A stretch of 64,000 nt of DNA from positions 62,001 to 126,000 of the forward strand of contig NZ_CANMVK010000005.1 in NCBI RefSeq assembly GCF_947501405.1. The letters are read 5' to 3'. The translations under genes and the position numbers were made by a program. Source of the stretch: an uncultured Hoeflea sp. Its GTDB lineage: Bacteria > Pseudomonadota > Alphaproteobacteria > Rhizobiales > Rhizobiaceae. This document shows positions 40,421 to 41,566 of this stretch, in pieces (within the stretch, counting starts at the first letter, position 1; each line of letters begins with the position of its first letter). The notes beneath the pieces are model-generated. The model was not told the origin of the DNA, ran no database searches, and saw only the letters and a list, made by a program, of their open reading frames with translations.

Positions 40421-40834
40421 TCAGTGCAGTTTTTCGTCCTCGATCTCCGGTGTCTGCCACATCTTTTCGATGTTGTAGAATTCGCGGATTTCGGGCCGGA
40501 AAACATGGATGATGACATCGCCGGCATCGATCAGCACCCAGTCGCCGGTCGCCAGACCCTCGACCCGTGGCGCGCCGAAGCCGGCGTCCTTGAGCTCGCT
40601 GATCAGACGATCGCAGACAGCGGCGACATGGCGGTTGGAGCGGCCTGAGGCCACGACCATGTGGTCGGCAAGCGCCGACTTTCCCGCGATATCGATGAAA
40701 ACGGTGTCTTCCGCCTTGGAGTCCGCAAGGCTGTCGCGGACCAGTTGAAGCTGGCGCAGAGCGGCCCTTTCGCCGCTGCCCGCCGCTTGAGAGAAACCGC
40801 CTGCGGCGTTTCCCTTTTCGTGTGCTGTTCTCAG
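40421..40834 (-). CDS. rsfS: Ribosome silencing factor RsfS, probable CTG start
   Basis: About 137 residues if it begins at the CTG 40832-40834. The RsfS fold runs from LQLVRDSLADSKAEDTVFIDI through GKSALADHMVVASGRSNRHV to GDWVLIDAGDVIIHVFRPEIREFYNIEKMW, so the domain starts well before the first in-frame ATG (40658-40660). Between the in-frame stop at 40853 and that ATG there is no ATG, GTG or TTG. The CTG is preceded by AAGGAACTACC, a good ribosome site 6-7 bases away, giving LRTAHEKGNAAGG as the beginning. RsfS binds L14 and keeps subunits apart during starvation. It lies downstream of nadD. Confidence 0.85.
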   Translation of the reverse strand: MRTAHEKGNAAGGFSQAAGSGERAALRQLQLVRDSLADSKAEDTVFIDIAGKSALADHMVVASGRSNRHVAAVCDRLISELKDAGFGAPRVEGLATGDWVLIDAGDVIIHVFRPEIREFYNIEKMWQTPEIEDEKLH

Positions 40835-40927
40835 GGTAGTTCCTTTCCTTGTTCAGAACAGTCCAACAGGCGATTCGCGTCTAGAAGCGAACCGCTTAAA
40901 GAAGATAGTCACGGACCCATTGCAATT

Positions 40928-41566
40928 TCAAGACGCGGGATTTGGGGGGCTGCGTCGTGCGTCGCGAATCGCGCTGGATGAAAGCGGCGAGCGCGGACCG
41001 TGAAGAAAGGTCCATGCCGGGGCCGTGAAAAAGGAAAGCCGGCGCGCATCGGCCTCGTCAACACGGGCATGCGCATAGGCTTTGGCCATCTTGGCCGACA
41101 GATAGGCAAGCGTTGAGCCGGGCCTGTCAACCACCGCGATCGGGAAGGTTTCGGCGATCCTCCGCCAGTTCTGCCACTGGTGGAAGTTTTCCAGATTGTC
41201 GGCGCCCATGATCCAGATGAAACGGACACCGGTATTGCGCCGCCGGACGAAATCGAGTGTCTGGGCGGTGTAGCTGAGATCGTGGGCCGCCTCAAAGGCA
41301 GTGACCTTGACCTGCGGGCCGGGCGCCATCTCGCGGCTCCAGGCGACGCGCTGCTCAAGGCTCGCCAGTTCGTCATGATTTTTAAGCGGATTGCCCGGGG
41401 TTACCATCCACCAGAGCTGATCCAGACCCAGGCGCTTGAGCGCTGTCTCGGCGACCAGAACGTGGCCCTGATGCGGCGGATTGAACGACCCTCCGAACAG
41501 CCCGACGCACATGCCGGCTTCGACATGCGGCATGCGCAGGAACTGTTTGAGCGGCTTAGACTGCAC
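40928..41566 (-). CDS. nadD: Nicotinate-nucleotide adenylyltransferase NadD
   Basis: 212 residues. The nucleotidyltransferase signature is GLFGGSFNPPHQGHVLVAE (about 22-40), including the HxGH-type motif; PLKNHDELAS and the C-terminal SSSAIRD complete the active site. It joins ATP and nicotinate mononucleotide to make nicotinate adenine dinucleotide in NAD synthesis. The beginning of the frame has some uncertainty: MCVGLFGG at residue 19 is another possible start. It begins 2 bases after the proA stop and leads on to rsfS. Confidence 0.93.
   Translation of the reverse strand: MQSKPLKQFLRMPHVEAGMCVGLFGGSFNPPHQGHVLVAETALKRLGLDQLWWMVTPGNPLKNHDELASLEQRVAWSREMAPGPQVKVTAFEAAHDLSYTAQTLDFVRRRNTGVRFIWIMGADNLENFHQWQNWRRIAETFPIAVVDRPGSTLAYLSAKMAKAYAHARVDEADARRLSFFTAPAWTFLHGPRSPLSSSAIRDARRSPPNPAS

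Follow-up and report, generated by a model that had tools for sequence, protein, structure and literature searches.

Near-cognate codons as probable start sites of the ribosome-silencing factor gene rsfS in Alphaproteobacteria

The rsfS locus and its CTG codon

Where does translation of rsfS begin if the reading frame holds none of the three usual start codons ahead of the conserved domain? The question is raised by the window analysed here, a stretch of 64,000 nucleotides in which the gene order is nadD-rsfS-rlmH. A sequence-only reading of this DNA had proposed that rsfS starts at a CTG codon. The features on which the answer turns are as follows.

40928 to 41566, minus strand: nadD, the gene upstream of rsfS (GTG start according to the mechanical ORF list)
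40902 to 40931, minus strand: promoter-like sequence TTGAAA-N18-TATCTT, a consensus match only, at the end and stop of nadD and 67 nt before the CTG
40853 to 40855, minus strand: in-frame TGA stop upstream of rsfS, with 6 codons between it and the CTG
40841 to 40850, minus strand: Shine-Dalgarno (SD) region AAGGAAAGGA, directly before the rsfS CTG; AGG-to-CTG distance 7 nt
40832 to 40834, minus strand: CTG, very probable start codon of rsfS, conserved in 102/102 home-family loci; no ATG, GTG or TTG from the upstream stop to the domain here
40421 to 40834, minus strand: rsfS coding region from the CTG, 137 codons plus stop, matching PF02410 and TIGR00090
39702 to 40184, minus strand: rlmH, the gene downstream of rsfS, read from ATG; it served as a control

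The product matches PF02410 with an E value of 1.8e-30 (105.5 bits, curated cut-off 21.6) and TIGR00090 with 1.2e-32 (112 bits, curated cut-off 56.9). Numbered from the CTG, the domain sets in at about codon 29-33 and the ATG at 40660 is codon 59, so that the RsfS domain does begin upstream of the first in-frame ATG, as the sequence-only reading had it. After the TGA (40855-40853) the frame runs ACA AGG AAA GGA ACT ACC CTG AGA ACA, and the lack of any ATG, GTG or TTG between this stop and the ATG at 40660, also claimed in that reading, is borne out. The CTG stands behind AAGGAA as described there; the spacing, given as 6-7 bases, needs correction, since it measures 6 nt from the end of AGGA at 40841, or 5 nt if AAGGAA is counted.

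Conservation of the CTG in the home family

The home-family set combined the window genome and 16 of 17 congeneric genomes with 80 named records (the best among 553 confirmed stretches) and 10 further genomes. In the genus search one of 18 genomes gave no rsfS match. The named records include Hoeflea, Pseudohoeflea, Sinorhizobium/Ensifer, Rhizobium, Agrobacterium, Neorhizobium, Ciceribacter, Mesorhizobium, Nitratireductor and Aquamicrobium; going by the record titles, we took their genera (Hoeflea, Rhizobium, Sinorhizobium, Mesorhizobium etc.) to form one GTDB family. Removal of five duplicates reduced 107 loci to 102, and a weak second hit (L018) was also dropped. Starts were placed by alignment because a codon-blind SD caller works poorly in this family: it picks the CTG in only 40/102 loci, and in 28 it settles on a canonical codon that is out of frame.

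All 102 distinct loci have CTG at the aligned rsfS start (97/97 in the first alignment), although the proteins range from 57 to 100% identity to the window RsfS. In L186, whose genome is AT-rich and measures 1.5 million bases, the CTG was placed by eye, the pairwise alignment having missed the site; the region reads AAGGATATTAAC CTG. The SD is conserved in position along with the CTG: the distance from AGG to CTG is 7 nt in 97 of the 102 loci, 8 nt in four and 9 nt in one. None of these relatives has ATG or GTG at the same place, which the earlier reading had named as the mark of a sequencing error. Since CTG occupies the aligned position in every home-family locus, the CTG of the window is not such an error, and the proposal of a CTG start gains strong support.

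Could this simply be a leucine codon like any other? At the other leucine codons of home-family rsfS genes CTG accounts for 497 of 1091 (46%), and no other leucine column matches the fixity of the start CTG. The wobble positions that follow the CTG are conserved too, codon 3 being ACA in 101 of 102 loci. In thirteen of the 102 loci, among them that of the window, the frame is free of ATG, GTG and TTG all the way from the stop upstream to the domain, and in 25, again with the window, no canonical codon lies upstream of the CTG; in L073 and L084 a single codon separates the in-frame stop from the CTG. Elsewhere in the family the nearest upstream canonical codon lies 2 to 27 codons from the CTG. 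The codon-position signal is mixed. In 15 loci of the genus (L014 and L015 were left out) the third position accounts for a share of 0.48 of the differences after the CTG versus 0.31 in the interval -48 to -15, but the shorter stretch from -30 to -15 gives 0.43, which goes against a clean contrast, and over the whole home family the contrast is weak (0.37 after the CTG, 0.34 before).

In Rhizobium sp. NLR16a (L356) a 489-kb plasmid carries both rsfS and rlmH; CTG and SD are unchanged there, and the upstream neighbour of rsfS is annotated as a different gene.

The rsfS leader

The promoter-like match at the end of nadD recurs: TTGAAA-N16-20-TATCT is present in 36/101 home-family leaders, 56-75 nt before the CTG, and is absent from all mononucleotide-shuffled leaders. 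This recurrence suggests that rsfS may have a putative promoter of its own.

In the window (40825-40861, minus strand) the leader also contains CTGTTC, complementary to the GAACAG directly after the CTG, and pairing of the two would loop out the SD and the start. Pairing of the CTGTT element with the first codons averages -10.0 kcal/mol in family leaders compared with -6.3 in shuffled ones. We do not claim a ribosome-binding-site hairpin, however: for one of the leader types pairing is stronger with the arms that belong to the other, and the only structure returned by RNAalifold is an invariant 3-bp stem with no covariation. The window leader folds no better than its shuffles (z -0.92), and no Rfam family reached threshold in the rsfS leader.

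Control genes

The neighbouring gene rlmH mostly has canonical starts. In the home family its start is ATG in 94, GTG in five and ATT in one of 100 loci, none of which lacks a canonical codon. ATG, GTG or TTG stands at the rlmH start column in 17/20 loci elsewhere in the order and in 68/76 in the class. The class also includes four loci with ATC (L284, L288, L290 and L292), from four genomes of one alphaproteobacterial order; judged from the sequence, these ATC starts look real. The gene nadD was tried as a second control and given up in favour of rlmH because its alignments often begin inside the gene; for what such a control is worth, loci whose aligned part is not preceded by any canonical codon number 0/80 in the home family, 3/16 in the order and 8/53 in the class.

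As a positive control we used infC, a known IF3-controlled gene. In the window's genus an ATT start was read by eye in 8/8 parsed loci (L339-L342 and L345-L348; one further locus could not be parsed). Two further families of the order contribute one genome apiece in which infC seems to start with ATA (L336, L343).

Other families of the order

Four of 249 genomes in the order search gave no rsfS match. The sample comprised 79 loci of other families (20 given and 59 chosen among the better matches listed) and three loci from the class and phylum searches, and covered 33 of 47 families; L247 was moved from the class set to this one. Outside the home family, 53 of 81 loci have an SD tetramer followed at 4-10 nt by a CTG in frame; they are spread over 23 of the 33 families, and the other two frames give 5/81 and 0/81. 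The start is ambiguous in 21 of the 53, because an ATG, GTG or TTG follows within three codons of the CTG. The remaining loci divide into 10 with a canonical codon and SD in place of such a CTG, four with ATA, ATC or ATT and SD, and 14 with none of these.

Several families of the order have loci in which an ATG stands one or two codons after the CTG (L108, L110, L112, L115, L122, L132, L159 and others). Such loci possibly have a double start, or possibly represent a transition from CUG to AUG.

The class and beyond

Is the pattern confined to the order? In the class search rsfS was found in 144 of 153 genomes (nine had no match), and all 142 loci that remain after setting aside the window genome and one genome of the same order were read. 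Start calling from the single best SD at a fixed gap was abandoned, as it often picked the codon just before the obvious one; a range of 4-9 nt with other-frame controls was used instead. Among the 66 loci whose best SD reaches -8 kcal/mol or lower, 39 have a near-cognate codon in frame at 4-9 nt (18 ATA, 10 CTG, 6 ATT and 5 ATC), eight have a canonical one (ATG or GTG) and 19 have neither; near-cognate codons in the other two frames number 6 and 2. With the threshold relaxed to -5 kcal/mol (119 loci) the corresponding figures are 62, 19 and 41, with 11 and 4 in the other frames. These counts are descriptive, as loci within a family are not independent. Near-cognate and canonical codons number 42 and 5 of 72 loci where the GC content of the stretch is at least 55%, 11 and 2 of 23 at 45-55%, and 9 and 12 of 24 loci with SD below 45%. 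The near-cognate pattern is thus mainly one of GC-rich genomes, AT-rich ones more often having ATG, GTG or TTG. No canonical codon precedes the domain in 17/127 class loci whose upstream stop lies within the stretch, or in 28/192 other alphaproteobacterial loci (not deduplicated).

Two earlier tallies were set aside. A first class count on 69 loci (the 30 best and 39 chosen in favour of larger genomes) had given near-cognate and canonical codons as 23:1 of 32, where the full sample gives 39:8 of 66; a count of 50/63 contained families that had been picked for the pattern. Outside the home family the pattern is less uniform than the first partial sample suggested.

Closer reading by eye was done in groups chosen for one member. 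In a family picked for an ATA member, ATA stands at the same rsfS place in 13/13 loci (one of 14 genomes gave no match); three of these lack a canonical codon, and L265 has ATG-GTG just before the ATA. In a family picked for an ATC member (two of 16 genomes gave no match) the codon is ATC or ATA in 14/14 loci, eight of them without a canonical codon, and both triplets occur at the same rsfS place within this one family. The order to which G416 belongs, chosen because of an ATA member, is more varied: of 24 loci ATA was read in 10 and ATC or ATT in three, a canonical start is plausible in four, and seven are unclear. A Rhodobacterales record (Qingshengfaniella) reads GGAGGACCAAGTC CTG.

In the phylum search three of 120 genomes gave no match; the best 30 of the 117 loci were read, and the 18 of these that come from other Pseudomonadota all have ATG, GTG or TTG near the domain. 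The SD caller finds an SD in 16 of the 18, with five canonical and no near-cognate codons in frame, and 4 and 2 near-cognate codons in the other frames. The rsfS start of E. coli MG1655, read from its sequence, is TTG, in agreement with the account in PMC10917681. The near-cognate pattern of rsfS reaches other families and orders of Alphaproteobacteria, where it appears to involve AUA, AUC and AUU besides CUG; it is wider than the single gene of the sequence-only reading.

Is the CTG the start codon?

We hold with high confidence that the CTG is the true start of the window rsfS. A rather similar outcome could be produced if translation began at an in-frame ATG, GTG or TTG farther upstream, the CTG being an internal conserved leucine codon. 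An in-frame canonical codon is met before the upstream stop in 77/102 home-family loci, and annotators do choose such starts, as in Sinorhizobium meliloti CP090106 (ATG 26 codons upstream of the CTG) and Rhizobium sp. NLR16a (ATG 10 codons upstream). This is nevertheless very improbable: the other 25 loci, the window among them, offer no such codon, in four Sinorhizobium/Ensifer loci (L034, L035, L037 and L038) an in-frame TAG separates the CTG from the GTG that lies 11 codons upstream, the distances of the upstream codons are scattered, the SD directly before the CTG would fall inside the coding region, and the leucine codon should vary synonymously as other leucine columns do. A start at a downstream canonical codon, with the conserved region before it untranslated, would have in its favour that the ATG at 40660 is the first canonical codon of the window rsfS and that in 52/102 home-family loci the first canonical codon after the CTG lies at the same distance; it can be practically dismissed, as a start there would cost 26-30 residues of the RsfS domain and the codons between the two sites show conservation (codon 42, for instance, is GAA in 99/102 loci). 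The CUG could, alternatively, be reached by termination and reinitiation from an upstream frame whose TGA overlaps it (CTGA), and a stop overlaps the CTG in the +1 frame in 98/102 home-family loci. We give this little credence too, since the +1 frame offers a short open stretch of varying length (median 19 codons, range 4 to 367), 39 of the 98 overlapping frames lack ATG, GTG and TTG, and the AUA and AUC sites elsewhere mostly lack such an overlap. One known case does counsel caution over an initiation role for the rsfS CUG: in Caulobacter dnaA a CUG with SD is reported to give a toeprint and yet to go unused in vivo (PMC8443254).

A different question is whether the start is real and its weakness merely neutral, a near-cognate codon being tolerated, with no regulation, because little RsfS is needed. 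Any response to IF3, RsfS or growth is so far a proposal, the 18 loci from other Pseudomonadota have ATG, GTG or TTG near the domain, and so does a good part of the AT-rich Alphaproteobacteria. AUG is, however, a single mutation away from CUG, AUA, AUC or AUU, yet all 102 home-family loci, like the 13 and the 14 loci of the two other families, are free of a switch to a canonical codon at that place, and the wobble positions right after the CTG are conserved as well. Neutral weakness seems to us rather unlikely. Returning to the CTG as start, the window rsfS has a non-canonical codon there and no usable canonical one, and the codon is conserved beyond chance (102/102 against 46%, together with the frame controls), the picture becoming mixed in AT-rich genomes. 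Very probably, then, rsfS is to be added to the genes with conserved non-canonical starts, the CTG presumably being the codon used in the cell.

Proposed mechanism

A real CUG start whose weakness has been kept by selection, with near-cognate codons tying rsfS translation to IF3 and the state of initiation, is the reading that we consider likely. The CUG would be decoded by ordinary initiator tRNA and placed by the conserved SD. Selection would have kept the start weak, as CUG throughout the home family; in other, mostly GC-rich Alphaproteobacteria it appears as CUG, AUA, AUC or AUU. Selection for weakness itself is suggested by the fixation of CUG in the home family together with the occurrence of alternative weak codons in other lineages. 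Near-cognate codons are of the kind rejected by IF3, and rsfS translation would on that account probably be low and coupled to the initiation machinery, in the manner of infC with its AUU. IF3-sensitive attenuation of rsfS is thus a likely consequence by analogy; we infer both the use of CUG in the cell and a benefit of low or responsive RsfS synthesis.

Could RsfS also act on its own start? In other species RsfS is reported to bind uL14 and to block subunit joining (PMC3400551), and the same function is predicted for the window RsfS. Its action on subunit joining makes it conceivable that RsfS feeds back on the weak start of its own gene. By withdrawing 50S subunits from initiation it might shut off its own synthesis first, since a shortage of joinable 50S subunits would fall hardest on the complexes at CUG, AUA, AUC or AUU, which IF3 already slows. 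Lineages might then exchange one weak codon for another and rarely for a strong one, a sensor needing weakness and not a specific triplet. That the near-cognate start is such a feedback sensor across much of the Alphaproteobacteria is a speculative and rather doubtful extension. The sequence-only reading had supposed that a weak start might keep RsfS low during growth. An E. coli rsfS-lacZ translational fusion (UUG start) is reported to peak in exponential phase (PMC10917681), which counts against a plain role of this kind.

Annotation and significance

The rsfS start is annotated upstream of the CTG in the S. meliloti and NLR16a records cited above and downstream of it in two others, 9 codons in Rhizobium sp. 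Q54 and 26 codons from the inferred CTG in Qingshengfaniella; none of these four annotated records places it at the CTG. Database starts of rsfS may thus often be misplaced. Among the titles and abstracts listed, with a coverage that takes in few subscription papers, none describes an rsfS start at CUG, AUA, AUC or AUU. The main text of a S. meliloti Ribo-seq paper (PMC10117765) does not contain the terms CTG, CUG or rsfS, and a term search of the main texts of PMC6538847 (Caulobacter) and PMC7566282 (Zymomonas) gave nothing on such a start. Phenomena of this kind are known; what is apparently new is the gene concerned, its start codon and its taxonomic range.

What does it mean if a ribosome-silencing factor belongs to this class of genes? 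To our knowledge evolution has preserved a non-canonical start in few bacterial genes; several regulators are among them (infC, sigR and ccpN). They would be joined by a gene whose start is invariably CUG throughout one large family and a different weak codon at that position in other lineages. It also becomes possible to test how IF3 and subunit joining are connected with ribosome silencing.

Comparison with known non-canonical starts

The gene for IF3, infC, is alike in being a translation-factor gene with a conserved near-cognate start (AUU or AUA), which is ATT in all eight parsed loci of the window's genus. It differs in that control by IF3 is established in E. coli, and in that rsfS has CUG here and a codon that varies among lineages; we know of no IF3 effect on rsfS. 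The IF3 control of E. coli infC and an AUA start of S. aureus infC are both described in PMC13009471. In Streptomyces, sigR is reported to start with GTC in 32 of 34 species and GTT in the other two, to be repressed by IF3, and to have its annotated GTG within the SD (PMC5472188). Several alphaproteobacterial rsfS loci (f61) likewise have an SD-internal GTG, in the arrangement GAG GTG nnn gcc ATA; gene and codon are different, however, and the sigR case is confined to Streptomyces whereas the rsfS pattern extends across orders.

Non-canonical starts are also reported for ccpN (AUA), cvfC1 (AUU) and citZ (AUA) of S. aureus, two of them conserved beyond the lineage, with AUA and AUU starts reaching some 10% of the activity of AUG when the medium is poor (PMC13009471). 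These are other genes, and their starts were established by footprinting and reporters, whereas those of rsfS are predicted here from sequence. Closest by descent is the E. coli orthologue rsfS (ybeB), which has a weak start as well, TTG in MG1655 (PMC10917681); UUG, however, is among the three usual bacterial start codons, and CUG, AUA, AUC and AUU are not.
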